A stretch of 64,000 bases of DNA, taken from positions 53,532,761 to 53,596,760 of the forward strand of contig OZ024869.1 of assembly GCA_964017185.1 (NCBI GenBank), given 5' to 3'. The notes beneath the pieces were generated by a model, which was not told the origin of the DNA, searched no databases, and was given only the letters and a program-made list of their open reading frames with translations. The stretch comes from Rugalucina vietnamica. Lineage: Eukaryota > Mollusca > Bivalvia > Lucinida > Lucinidae. Below are positions 4,641-51,947 of this stretch, piece after piece; position 1 is the first letter of the stretch; the number at the start of each line of letters is the position of its first letter. The translations under genes and the position numbers were made by a program.

Positions 4641-4886
4641 ATTAGCTATTTGCCTGTCTGTCAATAGCACATTTACCGAATATTTGCTATTGACAGATGT
4701 CTGTCAATAGACACTCCATTATATTTATTGACAGACAAAATCCATTTCAATATATCGATGATATAGAATGAATAAAATATACGTTTGTGCATCTAGTCCC
4801 GTGCACATTTCACACTTCAGAATTCATGAAAATATGAACGATTTTGTCTGTTTGTGGGTACAGTACCTCTTACGAAATAAGCATTT

Positions 4887-5122
4887 GAGCCGCTTCATGG
4901 GAAAACCAACAATCTGCATCTAGGCGAAAACAAAGGCGCAGATCAGCTTCGCAGTAGCCGCGAAGCTGATCAGCGCCTTTGTTTTCGCTACTCGGATAGT
5001 ACAATTCCTCTACTTTCTAAATCCAAAATTTCAAGCTTTTAACCATCTTCTATGCTTGTACAGCTCAGTTTGTGTCGGACCTGTTCGGAAACCACATTGT
5101 TAGTTTTCTCACGAGACGGCTC
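4887..5122 (-). mobile_element. MITE family A, copy 3 (236 bp)
   Basis: Inverted orientation relative to copies 1 and 2. The hairpin lies near the left end. Perfect 4-bp duplication ATTT at 4883-4886 and 5123-5126. Confidence 0.9.
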
Positions 5123-5126
5123 ATTT

Positions 5127-19220: not shown

Positions 19221-19396
19221 CAACATGCACGTTTACTGTATCTGGCAATGCATCCACTGAGAAACGATTAAATTAACGGTGCTGTACATAAAATAATGGT
19301 AGAATGGGAACACAAGAAATGATACAACAATGATATCAAGTTTGATAGACATGATAAGGTTTTTCTTTCTAGGGATTTGGCGGCCCTAAAGAGAGC

Positions 19397-20630
19397 TTAT
19401 GGAGTAGCCACAATGCGGCCATAGCTACAAAGAAGCAGGAGCTTCCATCCGCCTTTCCTCCTCGGCAGGTCATGGAGGCGGTTCGAACGTGGGCATCGAG
19501 GATAATCAGGCTCCTGGGCATCTTTCCATACCTCCTCTTCTTCGATCGACTCCTCGGCATCTTTCCACACCTCCTCTTCTTCGATCGCCTCCTCGGCATC
19601 TTTCCATAGCTCCTCTTCCTCGATCGCTTCCTCGGCATCTTTCCATAGCTCCTCTTCCTCGATCGCTTCCTCGGCATCTTTCCATAGCTCCTCTTCCTCG
19701 ATCGCCTCCTCGGCATCTTTCCATAGCTCCTCTTCCTCGATCGCCTCCTCGACATCTTTCCATAGCTCTTCTTCCTCGATCGCCTCCTCGACATCTTTCC
19801 ATAGCTTCTCTTCCTCGATCACCTCGGCATCTTTCCATAGCTCCTCTTCCTCGATCGCCTCCTCGGCATCTTTCCATAGCTCCTCTTCCTCGATCGCCTC
19901 CTCAGCATCTTTCCATAGCTCCTCTTCCTCGATCGCCTCCTCGGCATCTTTCCATAGCTCCTCTTCCTCGATCGCCTCCTCGACATCTTTCCATAGCTCT
20001 TCTTCCTCGATCGCCTCCTCGGCATCTTTCCATAGCTCCTCTTCCTCGATCGCCTCCTCGGCATCTTTCCATAGCTCCTCTTCCTCGATCGCCTCCTCGA
20101 CATCTTTCCATAACTCCTCTTCCTCGATCGCCTCCTCGACATCTTTCCATAGCTCCTCTTCCTCGATCGCCTCCTCGGCATCTTTCCATAGCTCCTCTTC
20201 CTCGATCACCTCCTCGACATCTTTCCATAGCTCTTCTTCCTCGATCGCTTCCTCGGCATCTTTCCATAGCTCCTCTTCCTCGATCACCTCCTCGACATCT
20301 TTCCATACCTCCTCTTCTTTGATCTCCTCCTCCGCGTCTTCGACCACTTCTTCCACATCTTCCCCGAAAATTTCTTGGAAAAAGGCATTGCCAATTAATT
20401 TGGCTGGGTCCTCTTCGTATTCTTCTTCTTCTGAACGCGGTTTTACTTTTTCTGTCTCAAACTCTTCTTGCACCAGCCAGTACCTTGCAGACTGTTTGAC
20501 GAACTCGGGAGCCCCGCTCCCATAGTGCATCCCACTGCAAGTCCCCTCCACCACCTGAACCTTAAAAACATATATCTTTGCAAATAAGGTTTTCGTGTAT
20601 AAACTTACACTCGCCTCGACTTGGAAATTT
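19397..20630 (-). pseudogene. Second copy of the 13-residue-repeat gene, 5'-truncated
   Basis: The open frame matches the gene at 7062-8510 from residue 14 or so onward: FQVEASVSLY, then an in-frame loss of nine residues after FAKI, the YGSGAPEF block, the acidic stretch, 20 repeats, and the tail ending LLLCSYGRI. Upstream of FQVEAS there is no ATG: a TTG and then an in-frame TGA (20642-20644) lie just outside the homology. Without an upstream exon this copy cannot start normally. The frame is otherwise intact, so decay is recent, or an unseen 5' exon supplies the start. Confidence 0.75.
19526..20302 (-). repeat. 39-bp minisatellite, 20 units
   Basis: 777 bp: nineteen 39-bp units and one 36-bp unit. 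It has fewer units than the inverted copy (23), which shows unit gain or loss since duplication. The 36-bp unit keeps the frame. Confidence 0.95.
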
Positions 20631-28461: not shown

Positions 28462-30039
28462 GCCCCAAACAAAAATATTCTGAAATGGATCACATCTTAA
28501 TCATATCAAGATCATGTTTGAATCACTTTTTGTGATCCGTTAATAGTATTTATTTGTGATCCGTTAAATAAATAACTAATAGATCACAAACACATTTTAA
28601 AAGTGATCCGTTAATGATTAATTTGAATGATCTGTTTGGTATCCGTTTAAGCTTTATTCTCTGGGCCATGGAAAAGTGATCTGATAATGATTTGTTACAT
28701 CTTAGGTTTGTCTTTATGTGATATGTTGTATAACTGATATTTTCGAAGTGATCGGTTAGTGATCTGTTATAAGATTTTTCCCACAGAAAGAATGACCGGA
28801 AATATTCTCTTTGTCTAACTTACATCCGACGGTGTCGATTGGTACTAAGTGTTAAATGCTTTTGTCTTGTTTTATACGTTACTTATTGCGGCATGCCTCT
28901 TAGTTTTTGGACTTCATAACTGTAAGTGAATATTTCATAATGTACAAACATGTAAGGAATAGCCGCTGTAATATTTTGTGTCACCTGACTCAACGAATTG
29001 TAAATTGTAACAGCCAAATGCGCGCGCCATTCAAACTCTAGTAGGTTGAAAGTCAGTGTGTGAAACATCCAGGGAGAATGCTTAAAGAATACATTTGCCT
29101 GATTGTTAAAGTGAATTATATGTTGGAATAAAGCTTGGCTGGTAAGTTCATATACTTTACCACGTTTATGAATGCAGACACCTCCAGATAGATTTTCATA
29201 GATTTATGTATACCTTTTTACTGGGAGGTTTTGAACAAATGATTGTAACTTCTTCCACAAAAACAGTCTTCTGAATCTGAATCAACATTTGGTTATAGTT
29301 GGAATGTACGTTTATACCATGCGATGAATATGTATTCTAAACCTAAAGAGATTTCGATTTTTCTGCAGACATTGATACGTCTTTACACATTTTTATAATC
29401 CTATATGCATGCTGCCCAATTATATGTTTCTCTAATGGACAGAATTAGGAGAAAGTATTTGGTTTTCTCAGCAAAGCTCAGTAACTCGGCTCTATATTTT
29501 AGAACTAGACACAAAAGATTGTTCCCACCTCGGTTTTTGGAGTGGGAATCTTTTTCTGATTGCGCCTTTTCCTGATCTTTGCCTACTTGTACCTTTTTAA
29601 ATAGTTGAACTTAGAGGTGTAGACTAACGAATGTGTGTACTATGTATGTCCTTGACCTGGCAATAAAAGTGTTCTTTGTTCCAAGTGATTTAATAATGAT
29701 CCATTTGTGACCCTGTAGTGCACGATTATGCATTAATCTTATGCTGAAAGTTAGTGATCCGGTAATGATTGGTTACAATGTGATTCAAAGGTGATCCGTT
29801 AGTATGATCTGTTGGTGATTCATTTGTGTTTCATTAATGATCCGTTTGTGATTTTTTAGTGTGTTGTTAGTGATTATGAGATGATCCGTTGCCCAAAACG
29901 ACCGCCCCAATATATTTAAATAAGTGATCCGTTAGCTCATTTGCATGGCAAATTTGATCACTAACAGATCATTAACGAATTATGATTCAAGTATGATTCA
30001 TTGGGGTGATCTTAGGTCCATTTATTTTTGTTTGGGCGC
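28462..30039. mobile_element. Non-autonomous element with subterminal GTGATCCGTTA repeats (about 1.58 kb)
   Basis: Short inverted ends (GCCCCAAACAAAAATA at the left, inverse GCGCCCAAACAAAAATA at the right). Many copies of GTGATCCGTTA(A/G)TGAT and variants cluster within about 330 bp of each end, in both orientations, and are absent from the middle. A copy of repeat family D (CTCGGTTTTTGGAGTGGGAA) sits at about 29525-29600. Clustered subterminal repeats are typical transposase binding arrays of DNA transposons; the superfamily is unknown. Confidence 0.65.
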
Positions 30040-31543: not shown

Positions 31544-31549
31544 CATCAG

Positions 31550-31795
31550 ACTACTAAGGGGGGTACATAAGCCTCAAGGGGTCACTATGGCCTCAATGAG
31601 GCCATAACCAAGGTCACTATAGCCTCAGTGAGGCCATAACCGAAAATGCCTGTCTAGGGTCTCTATGGCCTCATGGAGTCACTATGGCCTCAGTGAGGCT
31701 GTAATCAAATATGGTCACCTAGGGTCTCTATGGCCTCATCAGGTCGGCAAGGTAAAAAAAAATCCTCAAAATATGGCCTCACTGAGGCTATTACC
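31550..31795 (+). repeat. Polinton left TIR
   Basis: 246 bp starting ACTACTAAGGGGGG. Aligns inverted with 51690-51941, differing at two or three positions and by about 6 bp of length next to the A-run. It contains repeated small palindromes of the form GGCCTCANTGAGGCC and half-sites. Related half-sites continue inward to about 32085. Confidence 0.95.
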
Positions 31796-32371: not shown

Positions 32372-32983
32372 ATGGCATCGCAAAGAAAAAGGAAATCGAC
32401 GTCCAAAGATCCTAACGAACGAAAACAACCAAAGTTGTCAACTTCTGCTTCGGTTTCCGAAGAAGAGATTTTGTACAAGAAAGAAATAGGAAACGGCGTC
32501 TTCGTGTCTGTGACGAGACGTCGTGGTGTCACCAATGTTCATATAAGAAAATTCCTCCTGGTTGAAGGTAAACAATCTCCTTCCAAGTCTGGTGCCATAC
32601 TTAAACCTATACGCTGGAAAACATTCACCAGCCGGCTTGACCTTATCAAGAAGAGCGTGGATGACCTTGACACTGATCAAGACGTTGACGTGAGGCAGCA
32701 CCTTGGTGGCAATTGGTACGTGTCTGTGACAGAAGGGTTTAACTGTGTGGATTTTCGACAGTTTTGGTTGCCACCGGGAGAAGACGCAGTCGTCGGAACG
32801 AAAAGGGGGATAGCCCTTAAAATCAGCGAATTTAAGAGATTAGTGGATCTGACCGACGAGATCAACTCTGCCGTGCCTGGTTTCGAACAGATCGAGCTTT
32901 GCATAGAAAGGAATGACCATCTCAATCAAGAAGGTGCGCTGAGATGCAGTGAGTGCAACCCAAATGACTTCCAAAATTGGTAG
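32372..32983 (+). CDS. Double PC4-like (SUB1/p15 coactivator) protein, 203 aa
   Basis: ATG at 32372, directly after a predicted acceptor. A basic Ser/Thr-rich N-terminus (1-30) precedes two copies of the PC4 single-stranded-DNA-binding fold. The first is at about 36-96 (VFVSVTRRRGVTNVHIRKF); the second, more typical, is at about 108-168 (WYVSVTEGF, VDFRQFWLP, TKRGIALK). A C-terminal CxxC (residues 192 and 195) ends the protein. Cellular PC4 binds melted promoter DNA and helps RNA polymerase II initiation; viral and phage relatives act in transcription or as ssDNA-binding proteins. The partner gene, a TBP homologue, follows in the same frame after one UAG and 15 nt, which favours a transcription role. 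An ssDNA-binding role in replication is an alternative. Intact frame. Confidence 0.85.
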   Translation: MASQRKRKSTSKDPNERKQPKLSTSASVSEEEILYKKEIGNGVFVSVTRRRGVTNVHIRKFLLVEGKQSPSKSGAILKPIRWKTFTSRLDLIKKSVDDLDTDQDVDVRQHLGGNWYVSVTEGFNCVDFRQFWLPPGEDAVVGTKRGIALKISEFKRLVDLTDEINSAVPGFEQIELCIERNDHLNQEGALRCSECNPNDFQNW

Positions 32984-32998
32984 AGAAAAACCAAAAGT

Positions 32999-33508
32999 AT
33001 GATTACCAACGTTGTCGCATGTACAGATTTGCAGTGTAAAATTGATTTGAAAGCCCTTACACTAAGTGCTTATAATATAATCTATAACCCAAAACACTTT
33101 TCGGGCGCTATGTGGAGAAATAAAAAGATTGGAGGACTGTGCATGGTGTTTTCAAACTCAAAACTTATGGTTAATGGAAAAGCCAAATCGGTGAAGGAGT
33201 GTAAACGTCGCGTGAGAAAATATACCAGACTTCTTCAGCGATATGGTTGGCACGTTCATCTGTCAACAATTAGAATATGCACGATTTCAGCTTTCTTTAA
33301 ACTAGATTTCAGTCCTAATTTGTCCGAAGTTAAAAAATATTTCAATGGAACATACGAACCTGAGATCTTTCCAGCCTTAATGTTTGATAATAAAGGAGTT
33401 CATTTTACGGTGTTCTGTTCAGGAGCTGTGCTAATGACTGGATTAAAAAGGGAAAGTCAGGTGAAAGAAATTTGTATGCCAACGCTTTTAGAGATAAGCT
33501 TGTTGTAA
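32999..33508 (+). CDS. TATA-binding-protein (TBP) homologue, 169 aa
   Basis: The protein is almost exactly a TBP core: two imperfect repeats (about 1-83 and 87-169). Repeat 1 has CKIDLKALTLSA, YNPKHF and RRVRKYTRLLQRYGW. Repeat 2 has YEPEIFPALMF, FCSGAVLMTG and a terminal helix. The four phenylalanines that kink TATA DNA in TBP (human 193, 210, 284 and 301) correspond to Phe34, Phe51, Phe124 and Phe139. The repeat-1 central Asn is kept (Asn3); its repeat-2 counterpart appears to be Ile. The repeat-2 turn is two residues shorter. The ORF begins at the first strand, with no N-terminal extension. The ATG at 32999 is in frame with the upstream PC4-like ORF, separated only by its UAG and five codons. 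ATTAAA near 33549 could serve polyadenylation. I infer a promoter-binding role for the element's own genes; a decoy for host TFIID is possible. Confidence 0.9.
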   Translation: MITNVVACTDLQCKIDLKALTLSAYNIIYNPKHFSGAMWRNKKIGGLCMVFSNSKLMVNGKAKSVKECKRRVRKYTRLLQRYGWHVHLSTIRICTISAFFKLDFSPNLSEVKKYFNGTYEPEIFPALMFDNKGVHFTVFCSGAVLMTGLKRESQVKEICMPTLLEISLL

Positions 33509-35859
33509 TATACATTTCATTTCATGTTATTGCAAATGGTTACGGGTATTAAAATTTAAAAAAAAATCAATTTATGTTTTGTCATTTTTTTAGACATATA
33601 ACGCTGCAAGATGAAAATGCAATAGTTTTAGCAAGTAGAATCGAAGCTTGTATTTGAAGGCCTGTTCGATTGAAATAGTTAAACCAAAGTCAGAAAATAA
33701 CAAACAAAAACAGTATAAATTTCACCCTGCAGTGTTTAGACGTCTGCAATTGACCAAACCCCACCTGTCACTCAAAATATACACTGACCAGCAAGTATGT
33801 GACAAAAACCTAGGACAAACAAATGCACGTGGCTAATTGTGATTACATGTTACAGTAAATCACATGTAAATGAATGCAGCTTAATCTTTGTTTGTCCTGG
33901 ATTTGAATGACAGGCGGAGCGATAAAACGAATCGTGTTTGGTCAATTGGCTGAGTGTGCTGATCGGACTTGTTAGATATAAAAATGGGAAAAAGGCGCAA
34001 TCAGGAAAGAAATTCTCCCTCTAAAAACCGAGATGGGAAAAACTAAATAGACAGGTAGGTACTTTATACATGGAAAACCCGAGAACAGAAAAAAAATAAT
34101 AAAAATCAAAACTGTAATCCTTTAAGAGCAGTGAACACATTAATGAGAAAGTGGATGGGCTATACCGCGGTTTCGACTATTAAAAGCCCAGATATGAGAA
34201 CACAAATCCCAAAAGACTTAAAGAGACTTAACAAGATAATAAACATGTATGACTAGTTTTTTTCTGGGCATATAACCATCCAGTCTGGGTGCTGAATATC
34301 AGTGCACGCTTAGACTGTCAGGAATTGGAACAATCAGAACAAACTTCCCGCTCTAAAAACGAGTCGACTTAAATTTCATAAATTGATATGAATTTTGCAA
34401 GTGGTCTTATTTCAAGGAGTGCTAGAACTTGAGCATTTATAAAAATGTAGCTTGTTCTCTTTTTTTGTGAAAACTGGCCAACTCTTCACGGCGTTGTCAG
34501 CCCTACTAAAACGACACGAACCAGCGCGATGAACATAAAAGAGAGAAAGAAAAGATCATCAACAGGTTTGCACAGTAAAGGAGCCATTAAGCCCATGTGG
34601 CTTGTTGCTGGCAGTTCCAAGGCGGTGATTTAGAATAAATTCTTACTTAATCCTTTTTTTCTTAGTAAATACTATATGCTGGTTTGGCAAAGTGTGTTGA
34701 GTTAATAACCTAGGTCGAGAAAAAAGAGTAGATAATTTTTCTATCCTGTGTCTCTGATCCTCTTGGACGGGCTATGTTACTTTATAGTGGCACTTCCTGA
34801 GTATTCTATTCAATGCACAAATCATTTATTACTCATCCCTCCTTGACACTACTCTCTGTCATGGGTTCTTTTGTCAAGATATATTATTAAACGTTGTCAA
34901 TGGTCCATTGTTAGGAAAGAGCTGTTACATTGACTTTACCTTGTAAATGTCTCGTTCTTGTATATTTTCTAGTTGTGACAAACAAACTGTTGCAACAGTT
35001 TATGATATTGCTCATTTTGTTTTCGGAAGAAGGGTGGCCACATAATTGGTCATTTTTGTTTTCGCAGTTTTCTTCTGGAGATATTTAATCGCTTGAAGTA
35101 AAATTATTTTGACCTTGCCAGTTGACTCATGTATTCGTTGATCTCGCTGCCTCAAACAGGTAATGGCGGAACATCTTAGTCAGTAAACAAGACATGTACT
35201 TGTGCTTCAAATATCTTTTAATCAATCCCACTATCAATATATGCAATGCGTAATCACTCGAGATCAACTAGCAGGTTCAAACTAATTTTACTGTACTGGG
35301 AACAGAGCTGTAGTGTGCCAACCGGTGATTTTTAGTCTTTTAGGCTATGTGAAATGCACACCAAGTACACAGACTGCAACCTTAACTTCTCGATACTTCT
35401 GTGGTGGTTCTTTTTGTTTTATGTCTTGGTGTTTAAATTTTTTTTGTGCTGTTGGCGCCTTATGTATGTTTTCATATTTTTAGTTAAGTTAAGGTAACTG
35501 AGTGGCCACCTATTGGGAAAATAGCTGCTCATTCGGCTTACGACATGTTTCATGGTATAAGTACCTGATTGTTAGTTTGGTTTTTTCCCACCTCGGTTTT
35601 TGGTGTGGGAATCTTTTTCTGATTGCGCCTTTTCCTGATCTTTGCCTACTTGTACCTTTTTTCTGTCTTTCCAGCGACTTTACAGAGGTGCTAAGACATA
35701 ATGTAGATCAGAGGGCACTTGCGTGCACATCAGAAAACGCAGTAAACGATAAAATGCATTTTGATGTACACAAGAGTACGTACTACACTTAGTCTCAGCA
35801 CTGCTGCAAAAATATCAAAGAAAACAAGAGGATTTTGATTTTCGAAAACTATAATATTT
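33509..35859. other. Non-coding part of the Polinton with inserted repeats
   Basis: No supported gene. A foldback of about 200 bp lies at 33747-33953 (CAATTGACCAAAC at both ends, inner arms with CAGGACAAACAAA). Pieces of dispersed family D lie at about 33990-34190 (inverted GGAAAAAGGCGCAATCAGG, then the string around ATACCGCGGTTTCGACTATT, shared with 63070-63140) and at 35400-35690. These look like later insertions into the element between its convergent left and right gene blocks. Confidence 0.6.
33747..33953. mobile_element. Small foldback/MITE inside the Polinton (about 207 bp)
   Basis: Inverted ends CAATTGACCAAAC, with paired inner segments CCTGTCA(C/T)TCAAA and AGGACAAACAAA in inverse order in the right half. 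No coding capacity and no clear target duplication. Confidence 0.6.
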
Positions 35860-36321
35860 TTACATTTGTAACATATTTACAAAGTTAGTAACCTTTAGTT
35901 CATTTGCGTGTAAATTCAGTTTATTGAATGAATTAATAATACTATTCATTTGCAATCCACGACAACGAAAATATAAGTAATATATACAAAAGTGTGCACA
36001 AGTAAAAGTTCCAGATTGTTGTATCTGAACATTATTGTATCCGAAACGTCGACTCCTAGTCAACAATACACGTCTAAACCTTCTCGTGTAGAAAGATGGC
36101 TCACGTCCGAAAGAATCAAAAAACTCAGGGTATCCAGTTTTTGGAAAGTACATAAGCACCCAGTGCTTCCCGGGTTGGTCGTGCTTATCAGTGTTGATGA
36201 CAAAAAACACTGGTCTTCTACTGAACGTTTCTGGTGCTGTGTCCGCTGCATATATTCCACCAAACTGGCGCCTGACCACATGATCATTTAGTAAGATGTT
36301 TTTAATTTCCCAGCTATACAT
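35860..36321 (-). CDS. Polinton cysteine protease (adenain/Ulp1-like), 153 aa
   Basis: Capsid-maturation protease of the C5/C48 type. Visible catalytic residues are His53 in GKHWVLMYF, Asp69 in EFFDSFG, Gln102 in QQSGTFTC and Cys108 in CAHFC, in the order used by adenovirus protease. The length is typical for Polintons. Its ATG overlaps the stop of the major capsid gene (TAATG at 36319-36323), the last junction of the minus-strand cassette. It would cleave capsid precursors during virion assembly if the element forms particles, which is inferred for Polintons generally. Confidence 0.92.
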   Translation of the reverse strand: MYSWEIKNILLNDHVVRRQFGGIYAADTAPETFSRRPVFFVINTDKHDQPGKHWVLMYFPKTGYPEFFDSFGREPSFYTRRFRRVLLTRSRRFGYNNVQIQQSGTFTCAHFCIYYLYFRCRGLQMNSIINSFNKLNLHANELKVTNFVNMLQM

Positions 36322-37577
36322 TATTCCAGGGTCACGCTTCTACTGGCATCAATCCTCATCAAAGCCACGAACTTAGCATAAACAATAACCGTACAGGTTT
36401 CTGGTAGAGCCTCTTTGAACTTAAGCTCTAATCTTGTATGAGCTCTTTCGGACAGCCGATGCTTATCATCTCCCTCTGGTTTGAATGTATACAAACATGA
36501 ACCGGCTTTAAAATCCGCTCTCGAGATGAAAATTGCACTGTCTTTGCTGCGACTTTCATGAAGCCTGTGGTAAGTATGAACAAACAATTCGTTCTTATAG
36601 TCTGGTTGTAGTGGCTGTGTCGGCACCGATTGACCATCCACGTAGAATCCAATGAAATTGCAGTTAAATGTTTGGAAATTGTAGGGGTTTTTGACGAGGC
36701 TACCATGGTGGGCTGCCGATGATACTAGACCTACTGTTAGTTTCTCAGGCACTTCTCCCTGGAACAAGTCATCGGTCGTGAAGCTATACTGACCTCTTGG
36801 TACGGCGTATGTCTTTATGACAGAACGCGTATACGGATACATTGCATCGGATGACTTGAGGGCATCTGAGTGGCCTATGATAACGCTTGGATTTACTTTC
36901 ACGGTTGCTATCTGTAGAGCTGCTTCTACGATTTTCACCCTGTATGCCTCTGCATCAGATTCTGCGCTCAGTCTGAATGCATTGGAGCTTTGCCACAATT
37001 TTATATTCAGAGGAACACCGTTCACTAACAACCTGTCTTGCTGACATAGGTCAACATGAAGCTTCCCAATGATATCAATGGTTTTCCCACCACTTGTGAC
37101 CTTAGCTCTGTCGAACAATCCCTTGTTGGATCCTGACGGGTCCGTGATATCAAACCTGCCAGCCGTGTCCATAATAAATAGTTGAGATGACAATTCATGT
37201 TCATCCGTAGCGTCTAGAAGTATGTCAAGATAAGCTTTGTATGGATAGTTTGTACCCGTTTCTGTTGTAGGCTGTTGTTGTAAATTGAAATCCACCTGAG
37301 AAAACATGCTGTGCAACGGCGCATTGGTCAAGCCCACTTTCTCTGCCTCAGCAATGTCCTCGCCATTTGCCTTCACTATTTTTAGCTTTAGCAGAAGCAA
37401 AGTTTTCTTCAAGTTCATGTACGTCGTGGAAGTACCAGGCACGTGAAATTCTATGGCAGAACCATCGGTCAATTGATTAATTGGTCTAAAAGTGATCCAT
37501 TCCGTTTTCTTTGTTCCAACCTCCAGCTCCGGCTGTTGGAACAGGGCGATATCCTTATCATGAACTTCGTGAAACAT
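36321..37577 (-). CDS. Polinton major capsid protein (double jelly roll), 418 aa
   Basis: Recognised from overall pattern and position next to the protease. It has a short N-terminus (ITFRPINQL), β-rich core segments (VDFNLQQQP, VPLNIKLWQS, TYAVPRGQYSF, NCNFIGFYVDG) and a C-terminal hydrophobic strand (VIVYAKFVALMRIDASRSV). Family members fold as double jelly rolls and form the icosahedral shell. The ATG follows the stop of the small upstream gene by one base (TAACATG). The frame is intact and of usual length for the animal Polinton family. Confidence 0.9.
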   Translation of the reverse strand: MFHEVHDKDIALFQQPELEVGTKKTEWITFRPINQLTDGSAIEFHVPGTSTTYMNLKKTLLLLKLKIVKANGEDIAEAEKVGLTNAPLHSMFSQVDFNLQQQPTTETGTNYPYKAYLDILLDATDEHELSSQLFIMDTAGRFDITDPSGSNKGLFDRAKVTSGGKTIDIIGKLHVDLCQQDRLLVNGVPLNIKLWQSSNAFRLSAESDAEAYRVKIVEAALQIATVKVNPSVIIGHSDALKSSDAMYPYTRSVIKTYAVPRGQYSFTTDDLFQGEVPEKLTVGLVSSAAHHGSLVKNPYNFQTFNCNFIGFYVDGQSVPTQPLQPDYKNELFVHTYHRLHESRSKDSAIFISRADFKAGSCLYTFKPEGDDKHRLSERAHTRLELKFKEALPETCTVIVYAKFVALMRIDASRSVTLE

Positions 37578-37578
37578 G

Positions 37579-37869
37579 TTAAGACAAGGTGTCTGTCACT
37601 CGCAATTTCTTATGTGGAACAGTAGGCCTGGACTTGGATTTGCGTTTTCTTGATACCCCCTTATAGTCTTTGGAAAGTGGAGGACTGTCTTTTAGTTCTG
37701 ATTTGGCCAGCTCTACAGCTTGTGCAACGGGGGTCACAAATTTAACGTTAGGCTCATTGGATTTTCCTCCTGATTGTTCAGCGGATACCAGGTACTTTCC
37801 TAAAAATGCCGGTTGTAATTTTCCTTCAGCCATATCACGAAAATGTCTTTTCCACCTTTCTATATCCAT
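37579..37869 (-). CDS. Small basic-tailed Polinton protein, 96 aa, function unknown
   Basis: Lies between the minor and major capsid genes, overlapping the former by 10 bp and ending one base before the latter. The N-terminus is amphipathic (WKRHFRDMAEGKLQPAFLGKY); the C-terminus is strongly basic (RKRKSKSRPTVPHKKLR). The position suggests a minor virion or DNA-condensing component, but I do not recognise a domain. Confidence 0.75.
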   Translation of the reverse strand: MDIERWKRHFRDMAEGKLQPAFLGKYLVSAEQSGGKSNEPNVKFVTPVAQAVELAKSELKDSPPLSKDYKGVSRKRKSKSRPTVPHKKLRVTDTLS

Positions 37870-38351
37870 GATTTTCTCAAATGCAGAGTGCAGCGTACAA
37901 TGCCATTCGACCCCTTAGGTGGCTTAAGCTCAGGCCCCCTTATGAACAATGTCAATCTGTTCATTACATCGATCTTCACTTTGACGTAAAAGGGATCAGC
38001 GAATGTAAAATTTGTCATACCCGCCCTTTTTCTTGTTTTTGAATTGTCAATAGCTCTTAACACGGGATACAATGTATTTTCTACGTATGATTCCTGACAA
38101 ATATTAGTGCACACATAAATGAGGTCCTCAGTTAAAGTTGTCGAAAACTCTTTTAAACTGCATTCCCATGTTCCGTCCAGCAAATATGTTCGGGGCAATT
38201 CCACGGTAAATTCTGTTGACGTGTTGTCTGGACGCTGAATTCTGGAATCCTCACTACTTATGTATAGGTAGTGCTCCTTTTCCGTCATGTTCGAAAATGT
38301 AAGGGGCGAGTATATGTTTCTCCCCTTTATATTCAATTGTCTCTCACTCAT
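37860..38351 (-). CDS. Polinton minor capsid (penton-like) protein, 163 aa
   Basis: The N-terminal pattern (HYLYISSEDS, NTSTEFTVELP, LDGTWECSLKEF) is that of the short single-jelly-roll minor capsid protein that occupies fivefold vertices in Polinton-type viruses. Position directly upstream of the major capsid gene agrees. It ends 10 bp inside the next ORF. Intact. Confidence 0.85.
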   Translation of the reverse strand: MSERQLNIKGRNIYSPLTFSNMTEKEHYLYISSEDSRIQRPDNTSTEFTVELPRTYLLDGTWECSLKEFSTTLTEDLIYVCTNICQESYVENTLYPVLRAIDNSKTRKRAGMTNFTFADPFYVKVKIDVMNRLTLFIRGPELKPPKGSNGIVRCTLHLRKSWI

Positions 38352-38394
38352 CCATCTGTCACTGTCTACAGTTGACCACTATGTTTGTTAAGCT

Positions 38395-38877
38395 CTAGAT
38401 CCCACTATCTGAATAATTCTTTCTAAGGAATAAAGAACGTTTTTCTTTATTCATCCTTTTGATTACCTTCCAGTATGTTCTTGCTTCGTTTATTGCGATG
38501 TCAATAATACGAGAGAGTTGTTTAATTGTTAGCCACTGTTGAATATCAATTCGAATGCCCTTTTCGGTCATTGTGTCATTCTTAGAACGTCTGATGTCTA
38601 AAACTATCGTGTGGTTTGCATTGCAGACCGTGAGCCAAAGATCTTTGCTCAGATTGAATTGTTTCACGTACGCGCAAGAGAGTCTGTCGTCAACATCTTG
38701 TTTTACTTCATAATCAAGGGGTTGTGTCCTTTTAGCCTGTGACCGGCCTATGAGAATAAGACTGGGCAATATGCATACAAGGATGACAAGCGATATAGCG
38801 CCCACTTTCTTGATGACTGTAAAATGTCTTCTGAGAATCTCTGCTTCTCTAAGTAGAACGGAATCTGACGCAGACAT
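38395..38877 (-). CDS. Single-pass membrane protein of the Polinton, 160 aa, function unknown
   Basis: Residues about 24-43 (VGAISLVILVCILPSLILIG) form one clear membrane segment after a charged N-terminus, with a 115-residue soluble domain behind it. The lack of a cleavable signal suggests type II topology (inference). It lies between integrase and minor capsid genes, on the same strand. A TATA-like TATAAGG lies just upstream on the minus strand (about 38916-38922). It could be a virion membrane or assembly protein; no family recognised. Confidence 0.75.
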   Translation of the reverse strand: MSASDSVLLREAEILRRHFTVIKKVGAISLVILVCILPSLILIGRSQAKRTQPLDYEVKQDVDDRLSCAYVKQFNLSKDLWLTVCNANHTIVLDIRRSKNDTMTEKGIRIDIQQWLTIKQLSRIIDIAINEARTYWKVIKRMNKEKRSLFLRKNYSDSGI

Positions 38878-38932
38878 GATGCTCTATTGACTTACAAGTC
38901 GATGCTTACTGGGTCCTTATACTTTATGTATT

Positions 38933-40048
38933 TCAAGAGTAGTCTTTAACATCCTCAGCCGGTATCCAGGAATCATATTTCTTAGGCCAGTGCAACCAGC
39001 GCACAAGTACCTCTTTTACATTATTTCTAGTGCGTCGTCTCAAGATTTTTTCAATCGAGAATTCGGTGAGAGCATCAACGTTGACAGGTTGAATCTCTGA
39101 AGAATAGAAGCTACCCTTGATCACGAAACCACCTGAATATTCTTCCAGTTTATACATATCCGTGCCATCCCTCCAAAACCTCGATTTGATTCTAAATAGT
39201 TCTCCAGTCCATTTTTGTGAATACTGCCTATCAAATATGTGCCTTATATGGGACAACCTTACAGTTTGCCCTATGGTGAACTTGAACCTCTTACGTTTTC
39301 CTTTTGTTTGCTTGTTTCCTTTCTTTCTTAGCAGATATTGCTCAAATCTACTCTCGCTTTCGTTTTCCTTATTAACAGAAGCAGGAGGCCTCCCAAGGCT
39401 CTGGTGAACAGTGTGACTGTAACTGCTTATGATGTCATCGAGTACATCCACGTACCTCTGCGTTCTTTGTTTCATTAAATATCTGAAAATCTTGTGCTTG
39501 ATAGTTTTAATGAACCGTTCAGCATAGTTTGCCTTGGTCTCTGTGTTTTGTGAAACAAAATGATGTATTTCCAGTTTCTGCAGGTAGTGGTTAACCGCTG
39601 TGTTTTGAAATTCTTTCCCTTTGTCTGTTCTGATGAGTTTTGGGCGCCTCGGGCCTTTAAGAAGCTTTTGGAAAGCATGCACCGTTTCAGAACTCGTTTT
39701 ATTTTTCATAGGTATGCACCATCCAAATCTCGAGAAGATATCGATAGCAACCATTTGATATTTGATGCCATCATTTTTGTCGCTCAAAGAAGCCATATCC
39801 ATGATATCAACATCCCAGAGGCTGTCTAAACCTTCTACAACAACACGTGCTCGTTGAAATTTCCTCCTGATATCTTTGGTAAGAGAGTATGACTCTTGGT
39901 CCTGTAACCATTTCTTTATTCTGTATCTTCCTATTTTGAATTTTCCTTCAGCCTTAACCACTTTATAAAGCTTGTCTGGACCTGTGAAGCTGCCAGGATG
40001 TTTAGGATCAAAATAAATTGCCTCTAAATAGTCCTTCCAAGTTTTCAT
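38933..40048 (-). CDS. Polinton integrase (DDE, retroviral type) with chromodomain, 371 aa
   Basis: Catalytic core: Asp81 (VDIMDM), Asp142 (RTDKGKEF) and Glu177 (NYAERFIK); the last two are separated by 34 residues, the classical D,D35E spacing. An HTH-like N-terminal segment (1-70) precedes it. A chromodomain closes the protein (about 318-371: VLVRWLHWPKKYDSWIP), probably guiding insertion to marked chromatin. The enzyme would join the TIR ends to 6-bp staggered target sites, as seen in CATCAG. It starts 3 bp after the preceding ORF ends. Intact. Confidence 0.95.
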   Translation of the reverse strand: MKTWKDYLEAIYFDPKHPGSFTGPDKLYKVVKAEGKFKIGRYRIKKWLQDQESYSLTKDIRRKFQRARVVVEGLDSLWDVDIMDMASLSDKNDGIKYQMVAIDIFSRFGWCIPMKNKTSSETVHAFQKLLKGPRRPKLIRTDKGKEFQNTAVNHYLQKLEIHHFVSQNTETKANYAERFIKTIKHKIFRYLMKQRTQRYVDVLDDIISSYSHTVHQSLGRPPASVNKENESESRFEQYLLRKKGNKQTKGKRKRFKFTIGQTVRLSHIRHIFDRQYSQKWTGELFRIKSRFWRDGTDMYKLEEYSGGFVIKGSFYSSEIQPVNVDALTEFSIEKILRRRTRNNVKEVLVRWLHWPKKYDSWIPAEDVKDYS

Positions 40049-40051
40049 GTT

Positions 40052-40705
40052 TTAATTCTTAAGTGTAATCCACTTTTTAATAACTGATTGACGGGGAATT
40101 CCAGGTGGCCTCAGATGGCTTTTCACAGTGCCACCTCCCTTCATCCCAGGCGTTGTCTTTATAGTGGCTGAGGGCTTTGACCCACTTTTCTTTTCCTTTT
40201 TTTGCTTCAATTTCTTTGTATCAGTCACTTTTCTGTGAGATGATCCGCGAACTGCTTTGCGCCTCTTAGCTTTGATAAGACTGTTTGGAAGGTGTATTTT
40301 TTTCACTCCTTTATAGAATTCCTTCAACCCAGTAGGGTATCGCGGTGCCTGTTCCCTCAGGCTCTGTAGAAGTATATCAGCAATATGCGAATCTCTAATG
40401 ACTTTCCCATCATAAATGAGCTCTCCTTCTGTGTTCCATGACAAAGTTTTATTCGGCTCTTTTAAAATGAAAGTTATAATGGATGAAGCCCTCTCTTTAA
40501 ATCGACCTGGAATTGCTAGTAGTATGTCTTTCTCTGTCATCACTTCGCCGGTGTTCGTTGAAGGGCTAGTCTCTTTGCAGACATCTGAGGTATTGATTAT
40601 ATGTGTTTTACCCTCAGGGTTAACAGGCATGGCCTTATTTTCGTTGTCCAATAAGCGCTTATACTTTTCGTATGACAGAACAACTGACTTTTGAACGTCT
40701 TTCAT
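40052..40705 (-). CDS. Conserved Polinton protein with basic C-terminus, 217 aa
   Basis: The middle (about 66-140: LSWNTEGELIYDGKVI, then YPTGLKEFYKGV) has a pattern I associate with a family common in animal Polintons and related elements. The last 70 residues are very basic (KRRKAVRGSSHRK, KKLKQKKEKK). Function is not established; a DNA-bound virion or packaging role is possible. Its ATG overlaps the stop of the upstream gene (ATGA at 40702-40705). Confidence 0.8.
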   Translation of the reverse strand: MKDVQKSVVLSYEKYKRLLDNENKAMPVNPEGKTHIINTSDVCKETSPSTNTGEVMTEKDILLAIPGRFKERASSIITFILKEPNKTLSWNTEGELIYDGKVIRDSHIADILLQSLREQAPRYPTGLKEFYKGVKKIHLPNSLIKAKRRKAVRGSSHRKVTDTKKLKQKKEKKSGSKPSATIKTTPGMKGGGTVKSHLRPPGIPRQSVIKKWITLKN

Positions 40706-41070
40706 GATAAACGTTGCCTCAGTGACCTTTTAACTGAATGCAGAACAAGGGTAAATAATCTCTGATGATGAAACAAAAGCTTTTTCTTTTTCCGAAGAGT
40801 AATTCTTGTGTCAGCTATTTGCCTTATAAGCTGTCTGCGTTTCTTCAGTTTGTATTTATCTTTTGGATTGATTGATAATGTTCCACTTAAAAGATTCACT
40901 ACAATTTCTACCAAGGCTTTGAGCTGATCGGTTGTAATACTTTTTATCAGCAATTTTTTCTGCACACTCGATGTCGTGTCTAGCAGAAGCCGGAAATAGG
41001 CCGCGTTCCTACTGATGAGTTTGCTCATCGTGTACAGGCATTTTTTTTTTTGCTTCCTTCCCTTATGCAT
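40702..41070 (-). CDS. Small basic Polinton protein, 122 aa
   Basis: Lys/Arg-rich throughout, with a helical middle (LLIKSITTDQLKALVEIVVN) and KKRRQLIRQIADTRITLRKK. It resembles the small helical basic proteins found beside the ATPase in many animal Polintons; function unknown. It overlaps the ATPase gene by 8 bp upstream and the next gene by 4 bp downstream. Confidence 0.75.
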   Translation of the reverse strand: MHKGRKQKKKCLYTMSKLISRNAAYFRLLLDTTSSVQKKLLIKSITTDQLKALVEIVVNLLSGTLSINPKDKYKLKKRRQLIRQIADTRITLRKKKKLLFHHQRLFTLVLHSVKRSLRQRLS

Positions 41071-41716
41071 TTTTGCCTATGTAAATGATGGTATCCTCAC
41101 CCGGAAAAATGTTTGTTCTAAGTCTTTCGCTGTCTTTACCATATGGAGAAGTGTCCACGATTAAATAGCCGAAGACTTCCTGTGTGGCATCTTGATAGGC
41201 TTCCATCAGGGTGTTTGATTTTCCTGCATACAGCTGGCGACTTAGGGTAACAATCTGTGAAATTCCTCTCATGGTTCGAAAGAGTACCATGTACCAACAG
41301 TTCAAGGCTATAGTCCTGGCCGCCTTCCCTTGTCCATAAAGGTTCTGACTGATGAAAAGAACGCTGAGACGTCTGTGATGACAGCCCTGTACGAACAGTA
41401 GTTCCATATCATTACTTTCCAGCACTTGCTGCATTAAGTCATCCAAGATAATGAGGCGGTGATCTCCGGTGGCAAACTGGTCGATGTCACACTGTGATGG
41501 TAACCCTTGATGAAAGATAAGGTTAGAAATGCGTTCTTGCATGTCATCATACAAAGGTTGGTGAATGCCATAGCAGTACATAATGGCTGTTGGTGGCTCT
41601 GGGTCGTACATTTGATCCAAACAGCACAAAAATTTATACACCCATGACGTTTTCCCACAGCCTGTTGGTCCAATGATGGCCATGCTTGAATTGGCTTTGA
41701 ACGGAATTTGCGCCAT
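41063..41716 (-). CDS. Polinton packaging ATPase (FtsK/HerA superfamily), 217 aa
   Basis: Walker A GPTGCGKTS at residues 16-24 and Walker B LIILDD at 88-93, with a following arginine/glutamine region (LSVLFISQNLYG). The family is the A32-like genome-packaging ATPase that pumps DNA into capsids. Size typical. It starts 42 bp after the polymerase stop codon on the same strand and is the first gene of the compact morphogenesis cassette. Confidence 0.92.
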   Translation of the reverse strand: MAQIPFKANSSMAIIGPTGCGKTSWVYKFLCCLDQMYDPEPPTAIMYCYGIHQPLYDDMQERISNLIFHQGLPSQCDIDQFATGDHRLIILDDLMQQVLESNDMELLFVQGCHHRRLSVLFISQNLYGQGKAARTIALNCWYMVLFRTMRGISQIVTLSRQLYAGKSNTLMEAYQDATQEVFGYLIVDTSPYGKDSERLRTNIFPGEDTIIYIGKNA

Positions 41717-41758
41717 TATGAAGAGCCAATCAACAGGTGTGTATGATCCTCCTCTTAT

Positions 41759-44700
41759 TTACTGTTTTGAAAAGCCATATGGAACCGTGTCGAGATCCTC
41801 CTTCAGTACTCTCTTATCATATATGATTTGATATTTTTTCTTTTCTTCTGTGTTGTAGATGTTGAGAGAATATTTGTCACGTGTTATTGCTGTTGGATTA
41901 ACTGTCACAATTTGCTTTTTCAGTGGTGTTGTTATACATCCCTTATCTTCGTTATGTCGTTTTCGCTTGTTGGTGTCGCCTGCCACTTTGGCATTACTTG
42001 ACGTAGACGAGTTAGGATTTATGACCATGTCTTTAACAGTCTGAAAGTTCAGAATTTGTGCATTTTCATAATTCAGACTGAAACCCCTTATCTTGCACAC
42101 TTGCTTGCCTTTTGCTGTTGTAAATGTGTAATTCTTTGGTCCACCACTGACAAACTCTGTAATATGGTCACCATTTTCGAGTTCGTCCGTCAAGTCACCC
42201 AGGTAATCGCCAAGTGGTGGGTCAGTGTTTTTGTCTTTGCTGATATAGATGACAGAGTCGGTGTCGTAGTACAGTGTTCTTTCTCCCAGATCATCCAGTA
42301 GCTCATACAATTTCAGTCTAGCCCAGCATGTAGTGAATGATGCCAAAAATATATTTGTTCTCATATCTTCAGGGATGAAACCTTCATTGTGTTCCCATTC
42401 TACGACAATGTTCTCGTCATTTATGATATGGAAATCGATCAGGTGCTTCCTGGGATCCAATACCAACTGGTAGAATAGGTCAATCTCTAGCTCGTGGAAG
42501 AATCTGCATTGTTTTTTGTTTAATCTTTCTCCGAACTTTCCCCAAAACGAATTAAGGCAAAGCTTGGACAGCGTGCGGAGGCCCGAATTCTTCTTAACTT
42601 TATCGCTATCTAGGCGTATGCCTTCTCTGCTGAAATAGTCCTGAATGTACTTGTTCTTCTCTTCCTCTGTTTCACACCACTGGGGCCAGTCAGAGGATTC
42701 CTGCTTGTATTTCAAAAACGTGTCCACGTAAGAAGCAAACAGCCCACCATCTCGAGTGTTTGCATCATACTGTGTGGTCTTGGGAAAGTGATAGATTTCA
42801 TATATTTTCAGCAGCTTGTATCCTTTCTTTAAAGCCATGTGTATTTCGGGTGTACACCAAGTGCCAAGCAATGCTCTTTCCTCGTTACTGTGACTGCATA
42901 CTGCGGAATACCCTCTGGCACAAGCAGCGCATAAAGGAAACATTAGCTTTCCATTAACCCTTAATGGCAGCACAGGGTGGTAGAGTCCTGAAGGCGGTAG
43001 GATCCTCACCTTGGCGATCCCGAAGTAGCTTTCAATGGGCTGGAACTTTGTCGTTATTATCTCCGGATGACCGACGGGGTACTTGCCATATTTATTGCAC
43101 CAAGGATACAAACTGGTAAAGTCGCAATACCGGATCTTTTCGCCTTCTTCTGCTTTATAATACAACTTGCAAGCATTAGTTCTCCCTCCAAAGAATGACT
43201 CGCGGGGGTCTAACCTTTCTTCAACATCAAGCTCGTCAATGAGCTGTCGTATGTCCTCATTTTCTCTAACTTTCCTCAGCCATTCGTGTTCCCATATGCT
43301 TACATAATTGTATCCCAGCTCTTTTAATTTCTTCTTTTTTATCATGGCTAAGGAATGAAGTTCCTCGAAAGTTTGACCTGTTTTGGGGTTCTTGGTTGTA
43401 AAACGATTATCGGGGAAGCAATCTTTGCAGCCATGCCACAAACAACCTTGATATTCAAATACCGAGTTTGTCTCGGCAGCATATCCATCTACTCTGTATG
43501 CTGTGTTTGGAATTCTTTTCTCTCCGCCATTCAATGCGTGCTGTATGTTCTTATGTTCAGAAGTTGCTCTTAAGTATTCAAGCCAGTGTATAGAAGCTTT
43601 GCTGTAGTTGTCGGTTTGTACATATCCCCCACTTGGAACTTGTCCTATAAGTGAGTGTTCTCTCTTCTTTTCTTTGATACTGTAAGCTGTGTCTTTCATG
43701 TGTTGCCACTGACCTTCATAGAATATCTCCCAATTTTGATTTTTCAAGCGTAAAGGAACCCATCCTGTTTCTTTTAATTCGGCTGTCGTTAAAATTGCTT
43801 GGTAGTGTTCTTCCAGAAACAAAGATTTGTATACACCCATACAGACACTTGCAATCGTGACATAACTGAAAGGGTCTATTGCAGTTGCATCCAACAGCAG
43901 TTGTCGAAACTGTAAGGAAGCCCTTCGAAGAATATCCACATCAGATCGACAGTATTTTTCTATTTCTTGTTGAAAATCAAATATCTCGGCTGTGAGGATT
44001 TTTTCTTGATGCCATTTCATGAAGGCCTCCCTCTCATCCTTTTTCATCCGATTATGGCCATAAAAACTAGCGTCTGGATAGGGGCCAGTGTACGTTTGGT
44101 TCTCTTTGACGTTGAAAAAGTGAGGAAACCATCCCTTGCTTAGTTCATCAAACCCAAAGGTTTTTGGCAACAAAGAGAGCTTCATTGGTAGAAAGTTAAT
44201 CGAATCCAAAATTTTCATGTGGAGCCCTCTTTCTATCTGCATGTACATTATTTTTGTACCATCGTAAAGAATCCTGTCTGGCCTAATGCTGTTTCTGAGC
44301 AAATAATCTAGCAAGAAATAGCCATCATAACTTCTGAGGTTATGAGCCAACACAATGGTATTTCGATGATTATCTTGAAAAAGCCACTTCCCAAAATCAT
44401 CAATAGTATTGTCACCTTTAAACAGGACTTCTCGGAATCCGCATGTTCCTGGACAAGGTTCCTGGAGATACGTTTTGCTCTTTTGGTCGTATGGTGAACA
44501 TTTCTTACAGCGACTGCCACAAACATTGCATGTCGACAATCTGGTCATTGGTGCATCTAAGCAAACCTGGCAGGCGGTCTGTGCAATAACAAAATTTGGT
44601 ACATGCCTTTGCCGTCCACACCAAGCCTTTTTACAATGTACACAGCGTTGATCCTGTTTGTCATTAGACGGATTACTGCTGCGGCAATATCCCTTTTCAC

Positions 44701-46987
44701 ACTGAGCTATAGTGTCTTGAGTGGCTTCAAAGTCAAAAAAGATATAGGACGATTCCGTGCTAGGAGGCTCTGATGCATACAAATAACATAAGTGCTCACG
44801 TGTAACCCATTCTTTGCAAGATCCACACAGCCATTCTCCACACTCGTGATGTCTTTCAGGCAATCTTCGTTTCGTTTTGTCAATGATCTTTTTGCAAACT
44901 GGGCAGCACCAATACCTTTCACAAGGTGACAGTGATGTGTGCTGATCTTCTCCTTCCGCCCTGTTTCTCTTGGTATTATTGGGTTTCTTAATGTGCCTCA
45001 AATAACATTCCATAGACCTGCAATTCATATTGCAAGATGAACAATTGACGATCTCTTCTGTGCTGCGACATGTTACAGAGTGACACACTATGCAGAGTTT
45101 CTCACAGCGATGACCAGTAGAACTTTTGTAGGGTTGTAAACACCTTTCGCAGAACTGTTTCCCAAAAAAACCTTTAGGATTTATCAAACTGTGAAAATGT
45201 GCATGGTTTCCTTCTCCGACCATGTACAGATAAAGTATTGGTTTTGAGTCTACTCCAGAGCTTGGAACTCTGATGAATTTATTTCCAGTAGCAGAGGCAA
45301 CTATGGCAATGTTGACATCTAATGCCTCTTCAAATCTACTGATATCAGCCAGAGAAGCAGGAGTTTCTTCCGAAATACCTGCGAGCTTGCACAAAGCTAG
45401 TGCAAGATTTTTTTGATCATTTCTAACATTTTTGTTTTTCGTTTGATTAGACTTATTTCCGGGGCAAGAAATGTTTTTGTATGTTCTTCTTGATGTTTTC
45501 TTTTCATCAAGTAAGATGCTCAAATTGTTTTTGTGTTTATTAACCGGGAAGTCTTTCAGTGCTTGCCATTCGTCATCGGGAACAATACAGTTATTAGCAA
45601 AGCACACGCCTATAGCCCTTGCCATGCACATGTTGTCTTCATTTGTAATAGTGACGACAGAGTGTTTCTTGTATAGTGAGTTATCTTCTCCGTCAACTGT
45701 CGTTATCCTCCGTCTGCCAGATGCTTGTGGTATATGCAGAGCCCCAATAATAACTGAAAAAAAGTAAAAGAGAAACGTTTATATTTATCTGACTTTCGTT
45801 GCCGGTTTACAAAGGGTCACTGATTAGGGTTCATTATCCGAAATTGCTCTCTCCCTTTGAACGTTTTCACTGCTTCCAATAGAACTGACTTTTATATTTT
45901 ATTTCTAAAAGGTCATATTGTATACCTTAATGCAATTTCTTTCATCCAGCTAAACTGCGTTTTAAAGTGACTTGAAATATCTGAATTCAGTTAAATAGGC
46001 GTTATTCACTTAAAAAAAATACCTTCGAATGAATCATCCAGTGTTAGGTTTTCCTCAGACTGCAAAACGTTCTCAACTTTCTGCATAATCATTTCCGCAT
46101 TCAATAATTGGGCAGCCTGCAGTGCAATGACGATTGGATGGTGCAGATCGCTGTGTCTTATGATGATCCTCATTAAATCATTATCATTGAGACCCTGTCG
46201 CCCCTGGTTGACAACCTCGTCAAACATATCGTATAACTGCCGTCTGAGTTCTCTTAATCTCTCCCCTCGCCACTGAGTATTAAAGCGCACTCGATATGTT
46301 TTTTCGATTGCTGTGGCCTTAGCAAATCTTCTTTCCCCAGTTTTTTCAATCAAATATGGTAGGTCTGCACCGCCAATTTGACACTCTCTGAAAAGGGTAA
46401 AATAAAATGTATTAGATTCTTGGGTTAAACTCTGACGTTTTCGCCCTGAGACACAAAGCATTCTTTTCAGTGCTGCATAACTTTAATTCATTTTAAAAAT
46501 CGATCGATTATTATTGAGTACTGAAGCATATCTATACTTACTTGGTGGATAAAATTGGCGATGATGAACATGGTTGATAATGTTGTACAGACGTTGTTGG
46601 TATGGGCTCTTGAAATGAAGTAGACGGTAGTGGTTCCTGCCCAGATGTGGACGGAGGCTCTTGTGGGTTTCGGTTTTGCAACCATCCAAAAAGTGACCTG
46701 AAATCATTGTCAAAGACATAATAGATATATCTGTAAAATAATATTTTCTCTGTTTTCAGCGACAAAATTGTGAAACATGTGCGTTTTCCATTTCATTTTT
46801 AGACGTGATTTTACTAAGTCTTAAATATTCCTTACCTAGGACCGTGTGGTGTTGCTTGTGTATCTCTCAGCTCCCGAAGACGTCTTTGTACTCGTGGATC
46901 GTTCAAGCAGTTAGCAGCAATGGCATAGTCCTCAATTATTTGAGGATCTTGACAATTAGACAAGAGGTCTGATACTAGTTCATCCAT
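41759..46987 (-). CDS. Protein-primed family B DNA polymerase, four coding exons
   Basis: Predicted exons (minus): 46987-46836, 46697-46542, 46387-46023 and 45753-41759. All junctions obey GT-AG and keep phase, giving about 1555 codons. The N-terminal exons encode an acidic/helical region of unknown role. The main exon has Cys/His clusters (about 44820-45130), exonuclease motifs (FFDFEATQD near 44711-44740; AHNLRSYDG; YCRSDVDIL), an inserted nuclease-like segment (VDGYAAETNS, YQGCLWHGC) and polymerase motifs A (DFTSLYP, 43101-43125), B (NSFWGKFG, 42528-42551) and C (DTDS, 42252-42267). Such enzymes prime on a terminal protein and copy the element end to end. The start at 46987 is chosen for context; an ATG at 47023 is an alternative. 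Most Polinton polymerase genes are drawn as one exon, so the introns deserve note. Confidence 0.92.
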
Positions 46988-51689: not shown

Positions 51690-51941
51690 GGTTATAGCCT
51701 CAGTGAGGCCATATTTTGAGGATTTTTTTTTTACGAGACCTTGCCGACCTGATGAGGCCATAGAGACCCTAGGTGATCATATTTGATTACAGCCTCACTG
51801 AGGCCATAGTGACTCCATGAGGCCATAGAGACCCTAGACAGGCATTTTCGGTTATGGCCTCACTGAGGCTATAGTGACCTTGGTTATGGCCTCATTGAGG
51901 CCATAGTGACCCCTTGAGGCTTATGTACCCCCCTTAGTAGT
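51690..51941 (-). repeat. Polinton right TIR
   Basis: Inverse of 31550-31795, ending CCCCCCTTAGTAGT. Followed directly by CATCAG (51942-51947), the same six bases that precede the left TIR. Confidence 0.95.
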
Positions 51942-51947
51942 CATCAG

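Follow-up and report, generated by a model that had tools for sequence, protein, structure and literature searches.

In a stretch of 64,000 nucleotides from the genome of the lucinid bivalve Rugalucina vietnamica (contig OZ024869.1, positions 53,532,761 to 53,596,760; hereafter the window), a complete Polinton carries an intact gene for a homologue of the TATA-binding protein (TBP). Support for a TBP encoded by the Polinton comes from profile matches, the predicted fold, the boundaries of the element, the recurrence of the gene in further Polintons of this genome and a broad family of related proteins. Among animal Polintons there is a clade with a TBP gene of its own; some of the ten further copies in this genome have broken genes.

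Identity of the TBP and Its Polinton

The open reading frame (ORF; 32999..33508, plus strand) is uninterrupted from ATG to stop codon and encodes 169 amino acids, which make up a two-repeat core without an N-terminal domain. Two stretches of it match the profile PF00352, with a score of 92.4 bits where the curated cut-off is 22.9, and 35 of the 39 sequences listed as matches among solved structures are TBPs (E 2e-22 to 9e-15). The predicted structure has the saddle fold and is, in structural alignment, 27–30% identical to eukaryotic TBPs; when it is aligned with cellular TBP, the four phenylalanines that intercalate into DNA have counterparts in Phe34, Phe51, Phe124 and Phe139. These results bear out an earlier note, made from the sequence alone, which had described an intact frame with a TBP core and counterparts of all four phenylalanines; its reservation that a TBP profile might not match significantly proved unfounded. 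By sequence and predicted fold the product is a TBP. TBP is among the most conserved eukaryotic proteins, and the version in the Polinton is intact and strongly diverged.

The host-genome Polinton measures 20,392 bp (31550-51941). Its terminal inverted repeats (TIRs) of about 245 nt, located at 31550..31795 (plus strand) and 51690..51941 (minus strand), start at 31550 and 51941 and differ by one mismatch over their outer 204 nt, and a 6-bp target site duplication (TSD), CATCAG, flanks both (strandless copies at 31544..31549 and 51942..51947). Because the TIRs are near-identical and CATCAG is present on both sides, both ends, and with them the size, are regarded as complete, as the earlier note had held. 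Besides TIRs and TSD, the element has the viral-type DNA polymerase B (PolB; PF03175, E 1e-45) and the retroviral-type integrase (PF00665) by which Polintons are recognized. The distance of 3.5 kb once given to the next Polinton gene has to be corrected: the next gene on the minus strand, which is protease-like (35860-36321), lies at 2.35 kb, and the nearest gene of all is the ORF of a PC4-like coactivator on the same strand as TBP, whose end is 15 nt from the TBP start codon.

Occurrence in the Host Genome

A genome-wide search gave 12 matches: besides the copy in the window and a single host exon, these are ten other Polinton copies. The 24 matches of the PF00352 profile lead to the same 11 Polinton copies and to two host genes. 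One of these host genes (C4) is the canonical TBP, with its core split over several exons; the other (C5) is TRF2-like and likewise split. The TBP frame is full-length and open in 8 of the 11 Polinton copies (the window, L002 and L004-L009), truncated in L003 and L011, and broken in L010, which lies within a decayed element. Around the ten other copies, the DNA of which was searched in single pieces, homologues of PC4, integrase, capsid-type protein, protease, ATPase and PolB were found in varying completeness; this piecewise search revealed neither PC4 nor integrase for the copy on C14, and only PC4 and a PolB stretch near the copy at C11:33.27 Mb (L016). The TBP of L016 is cut near residue 79 and runs in frame into the PolB stretch (P0005 is the same protein); this fusion is probably a recombinant between Polintons.

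The genome contains three or more families of TBP-bearing Polintons. The first comprises the window and the copies at C11:34.49 Mb (L014; TBP 63% identical) and C11:33.27 Mb, the second (family B) seven near-identical copies (TBP 41%) in which the TBP gene lies between integrase and p163, and the third a decayed element at C1:92.24 Mb. L014 possesses TBP, PC4, integrase, ATPase and PolB, but the interval from its TBP to p160 yielded none of the capsid, protease, p163 and p111 genes; its integrase and PC4 frames are interrupted by a stop, and PolB is matched in two different frames. The earlier note had proposed looking for the same gene at the same position in other Polintons: the gene does recur, in ten further copies, but its location differs between the families, and it must, therefore, have moved within the element or have been gained more than once.

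The distribution was also compared with that of the capsid-type gene, for which 100 of 134 candidates were scored, the locations of the two genes being compared by eye. TBP is present at 9 of the 11 places with a capsid-type protein of at least 41% identity. It is absent from the 8 kb read of a related element at C11:10.10 Mb, in which PC4, integrase and ATPase are present, and at C13:44.57 Mb the genome-wide profile search gave no TBP match. The other 89 capsid rows include a further fragment of the gene at C1:92.23; the remaining 88 all have no TBP match within 200 kb. By this distribution over capsid relatedness, TBP characterizes a single clade among the Polintons of the genome. PC4 is somewhat wider, with 27 genome matches, some of which are pieces of one gene; homologues are also present in L048, a related Polinton in which TBP was not detected, and at further places in the genome.

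Relatives in Other Genomes and Phylogeny

A search of 5.8 billion database proteins yielded 333 relatives at E < 0.001, own-genome copies included, and the best 120 of these were listed. Proteins of Mercenaria mercenaria are among the matches listed, one of them (P0047) named TATA-box-binding protein-like 1, and other named relatives there are filed under symbiont metagenome-assembled genomes. Some bivalve "TBP-like 1" annotations, such as P0047, may be Polinton genes. Seven TBP or capsid-type proteins (P0101, P0104, P0117, P0132, P0151, P0166 and P0229) are filed under Thiodiazotropha, Sedimenticola or a Solemya symbiont; such symbiont-filed proteins are probably animal DNA in bins.

Five contig sizes (4308, 4455, 9321, 9776 and 50412) are common to the TBP and capsid-type lists, and their source labels agree pairwise. 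For contigs of 4-60 kb only 0.11 shared sizes are expected, with a maximum of 3 in 20,000 trials; over all contig sizes 0.9 are expected, with a maximum of 6 in 5,000 trials (119 of the 120 rows of each list entered this test, the window's own contig being left out). The two proteins of the 9776-bp pair have locus tags close to each other (ABW072_02025 and ABW072_02035). The shared contig sizes and the close locus tags indicate that TBP probably accompanies Polinton genes in other genomes too. Scans of the IMG/VR Polintons with TBP, PolB and capsid queries gave no relative, and the GTDB contigs gave no member of the TBP family.

A tree was calculated from 62 rows: 44 Polinton-family, 4 eukaryotic and 3 archaeal TBPs and 11 TBPs from IMG/VR contigs. 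The family rows derive from the 118 of 122 proteins with a length of 150-210 aa, which a 65% identity filter reduced to 43, supplemented with L005_B; vir_L044, which contains a stop codon, and family proteins outside this length range were left out. A second tree held every second family row and the host TRF2-like sequence (a partial row with a long branch), the P0005 chimera being omitted. All 44 family sequences lie on one side of a branch with support 100/100 and a length of about 1.65 changes per site (1.29 + 0.36 across the root of the drawing), and this split is unchanged after addition of the TRF2-like sequence, the separation from the IMG/VR-contig TBPs again having 100/100. The phylogeny against host TBP, TRF and archaeal TBPs suggested by the earlier note thus sets the family apart, and it is compatible with a single origin of the Polinton TBP type. 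A host retrocopy or a single capture, the other doubt raised in that note, is rejected in view of the 11 copies, the intron-split host genes and the depth of this clade.

The branch that separates archaeal and IMG/VR-contig TBPs from eukaryotic and Polinton TBPs has support 98/84, and 93/87 in the second tree; the 11 IMG/VR-contig TBPs group with the archaeal ones. The position on the eukaryote side, together with R73, Y75, R77 and Leu/Ile123, favours an old capture from a eukaryote, which we propose tentatively from trees in which the 11 IMG/VR-contig TBPs are the only rows from a viral sequence collection. An archaeal or IMG/VR-contig origin was considered and, tentatively in view of the long branches, rejected: with archaea as the outgroup the family stands on the eukaryotic side, and it shares the R-[RK]-Y-x-R helix and Leu/Ile123 with eukaryotes. 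Descent from TRF2 (TBPL1) was likewise rejected; at a position where the Polinton family has Thr, Asn is retained in the TRF2-like pieces of the host, and the partial, long-branch row does not group with the family.

Conservation of Functional Residues

Residues were tallied over the 122 family proteins, including P0003, P0005 and P0006, which are partial or chimeric. The wedge phenylalanines are kept in 113, 121, 118 and 105 members. At the TFIIB-contact positions, which we take to be yeast E186, E188 and L189, the family has Glu (108/122), Glu (114/122) and Leu or Ile (115/122), and the YEPE[LI]F stirrup, the eukaryote-type R-[RK]-Y-x-R helix (R73, Y75, R77) and Leu/Ile123 are conserved as well. 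The base-reading positions, presumably yeast N69, T124, N159 and T215, are different: the cellular Asn-Thr-Asn-Thr set occurs in none of the 122 proteins, N-N-T-T, the set of the window TBP, in 91 and N-Q-T-T in 15, while the third of these places is Asn in all 18 comparison sequences. The N-terminal stirrup is remodelled, with family-specific W39, I44, G45, G46 and C48. Judged from these alignments, the family is diverged in its DNA-reading residues and has retained the wedge phenylalanines and the TFIIB-contact stirrup. We infer that the kept contacts would speak for recruitment of TFIIB and RNA polymerase II (Pol II), and the changed base-reading residues for a promoter class of its own.

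Function of the Polinton TBP

The reading that we consider probable is that the Polinton-encoded TBP marks the promoters of the element and, with PC4, recruits host TFIIB and Pol II independently of TFIID. The protein, alone or with the adjacent PC4-like protein, would bind element promoters and bend the DNA in the manner of TBP; the target is probably a variant of the TATA box, since only two of the four central residues that face the minor groove are the same as in cellular TBP. The YEPE[LI]F stirrup and the R[RK]YxR helix would then recruit host TFIIB/TFIIA and Pol II, and the tightly packed genes of the element might be transcribed without TFIID. In a stronger form of this reading, TBP and PC4 would be all that the clade needs for an initiation system of its own, the Asn-Asn-Thr-Thr saddle would read a core-promoter code particular to the element, and a 20-kb mobile virus would thereby control its gene expression apart from host TFIID; this is a serious possibility that we would not yet favour. 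If it is true, this is to our knowledge the smallest DNA element with its own TBP-type promoter-selection factor.

No promoter motif is established for the element genes in the stretches tested. On the gene strand, TATAWA occurs 8 times in the late cluster of the window (3.7 expected) and 11 times in the ATPase-PolB region of family B (4.6 expected), and TATTWA 8 times in the late cluster (4.2 expected); TATAWAWR is absent from both the late cluster and PolB of the window, where shuffles contain only 1.3 and 0.7. The hexamer ATAAGG occurs 4 times in 25 upstream stretches of element genes (0.8 expected; reached in 6 of 500 shuffles) and 9 times on the late strand of the window (35860-41720, minus; 2.1 expected; 0 of 300 shuffles), two of these sites preceding the p160 and capsid-type start codons by 43 and 87 nt. 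In L014 it is weakly present (3 against 1.1; 24 of 300 shuffles), with four occurrences in positions 2001-6000 of that sequence. It is a post hoc lead.

Several observations weigh against a TBP that serves the element's own promoters. None of seven TATA-like patterns is enriched in the 25 upstream stretches; the TATAWA excess is equal in an element without detectable TBP (9 against 3.6) and is, therefore, not specific; and the ATAAGG excess is missing from family B and, in a scan over every 6-mer, no greater than in shuffled sequence. Compared with cellular TBP, the C-terminal stirrup lacks two residues, which may alter the contact with TFIIB, and the PC4 of the window matches the PC4 family only moderately. 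TBP is missing from most capsid-bearing places of this genome and so is no general requirement of Polintons. The evidence for selection is also limited: dN is 0.32 and dS about 2.1, near saturation, between the window and L002, the copies of family B show too few changes for dN/dS, and the window differs from the truncated L003 by 6 nonsynonymous and 1 synonymous changes. The latter might be expected of a broken copy, and the family-wide conservation of residues is a better sign of long-term constraint than pairwise dN/dS.

These selection data bear on the view that the gene is a chance-captured, decaying and functionless host copy, to which the 6:1 ratio, the broken L010 in its decayed element and the truncated L003 and L011 would conform. 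With 8 of the 11 own-genome copies full-length and open, 333 relatives, of which the 44 in the tree form one deep clade, and functional residues kept by most of the 122 proteins, this is scarcely credible, although the window copy alone could still be silent. It is unlikely, too, that the protein acts on the host by competing with TFIID for TFIIB/TFIIA or for host promoters, thereby dampening or redirecting transcription. The kept factor-contact residues would permit this and no promoter class of the element is established, but the conserved manner in which the base-reading residues were changed points to a particular DNA target, and a pure decoy would not need the wedge phenylalanines.

TBP is a strong DNA bender, and the palindromic GCCTCAnTGAGGC units repeated within the TIRs are possible binding targets for an architectural protein that acts in replication, packaging or integration, at the terminal repeats or an origin. 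We regard such a role as quite improbable: it would not require conserved TFIIB/TFIIA-contact surfaces, the related Polinton without detectable TBP still has integrase and ATPase, and the neighbouring gene is a homologue of a transcription coactivator. The convex helix of TBP is used by Brf1 as well as TFIIA, and its conservation (R73, Y75, R77) would also suit a protein serving a Brf/Pol III-type complex in place of TFIIB/Pol II; the genes of the element are protein-coding and the TFIIB-contact stirrup is kept, which renders this very improbable.

The TBP gene suggests that elements of this kind may set the starts of their genes themselves and not depend on the host for this. It makes testable the question of how Polintons express packed, even overlapping, genes in a eukaryotic nucleus. 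A family of mobile-element TBPs with several hundred database sequences, in which the wedge and the TFIIB surface are retained and base-reading residues differ, is also a natural experiment in DNA recognition by TBP.

Gene Content of the Element

Near the left terminus the plus strand carries the PC4-like and TBP genes; PolB, ATPase, integrase, capsid-type and protease-like genes lie on the minus strand. The PC4-like gene (32372..32983, plus) contains two PC4 stretches (PF02229, E 6.3e-9; weak matches to PC4 in the PDB, E 0.03), and the sequence directly before its start codon ends in TTTTATTTTCAGC, which by eye resembles a 3' splice site. On the minus strand follow the protease-like gene (35860..36321), which we assume from its motif to be of the adenain type, and a capsid-type protein of 418 aa (36321..37577). 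Both ORFs are conserved in related elements and are without Pfam, PHROG or PDB match; the fold prediction for the capsid-type protein was poor (pLDDT 43) and was set aside. Some of its bivalve relatives are named F54H12.2-like, a family which we take to be the Polinton major capsid protein. Further minus-strand ORFs conserved in related elements are the small p111 with a putative start codon (37579..37914), p163 (37860..38351), p160 with a hydrophobic stretch (38395..38877), and p217 and p122 (40052..41070). The integrase (38933..40048) has an rve domain and a chromodomain (PF00665, E 9.2e-11; PF00385, E 1.4e-8). The putative packaging-type, A32-like ATPase (41063..41716) matches PF04665 at E 1.5e-4, its score of 21.7 bits falling just short of the cut-off of 22.8, and is conserved in related elements, as is an ORF (46006..46482) upstream of PolB (41759..45778), possibly its N-terminal exon; both are on the minus strand, like PolB.

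An 80-nt repeat, 98% identical, occurs outside the element (29519-29598) and in the gap between TBP and protease-like gene (35582-35661); it is probably an interspersed repeat inserted into the Polinton. Elsewhere in the window, at 7435-8372 and 19394-20470, a 39-nt unit that codes for EEEELWKDAEEAI-type repeats forms long arrays inverted to each other.

Comparison with Known Systems

With Polintons/Mavericks and adintoviruses the element shares PolB, the chromodomain integrase, TIRs and a 6-bp TSD and, as candidates, an A32-like ATPase, a protease-like and a capsid-type gene; it differs in having TBP beside PC4, an arrangement undescribed in the accessible literature. The earlier note knew of no reported Polinton TBP, and we found no such report in that literature either, subscription journals and most preprints lying outside its scope. 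With cellular TBP (PF00352) the protein has in common the two-repeat saddle, the four intercalating phenylalanines, the TFIIB-contact stirrup and the R-[RK]-Y-x-R helix. It differs in its low identity (27-30%), in N-N-T-T instead of N-T-N-T, in the W39/IGG/C48 stirrup, in the shorter C-terminal stirrup, and in being intronless, devoid of an N-terminal domain and situated inside a mobile element.

Large DNA viruses also carry TBP genes, in genomes far larger than a Polinton. Mimiviridae and relatives have their own TBP, some beside their own TFIIB (PMC3620924, PMC11464507, PMC12085832), and mirusviruses carry a TBP gene (PMC10132985). Several giant-virus TBPs are among the best 50 matches listed in a fold search of BFVD, the best matches being 6-21% identical to the Polinton TBP; herpesvirus proteins rank low in this search (ranid herpesvirus ORF75, E 6e-5; elephant herpesvirus U58, E 2e-3). 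The herpesvirus TATT-binding protein (ORF24 of Kaposi's sarcoma-associated herpesvirus, BcRF1 of Epstein-Barr virus) is described as having a TBP fold, reading a non-canonical TATA box and recruiting host Pol II to late genes (PMC7498053, PMC4893493). It is only about 10% identical to TBP and has an N-terminal domain that binds the C-terminal domain of Pol II, whereas the Polinton TBP is a bare core of 169 aa. As far as these sources go, it is, with these differences, the nearest tested working model for the Polinton TBP.
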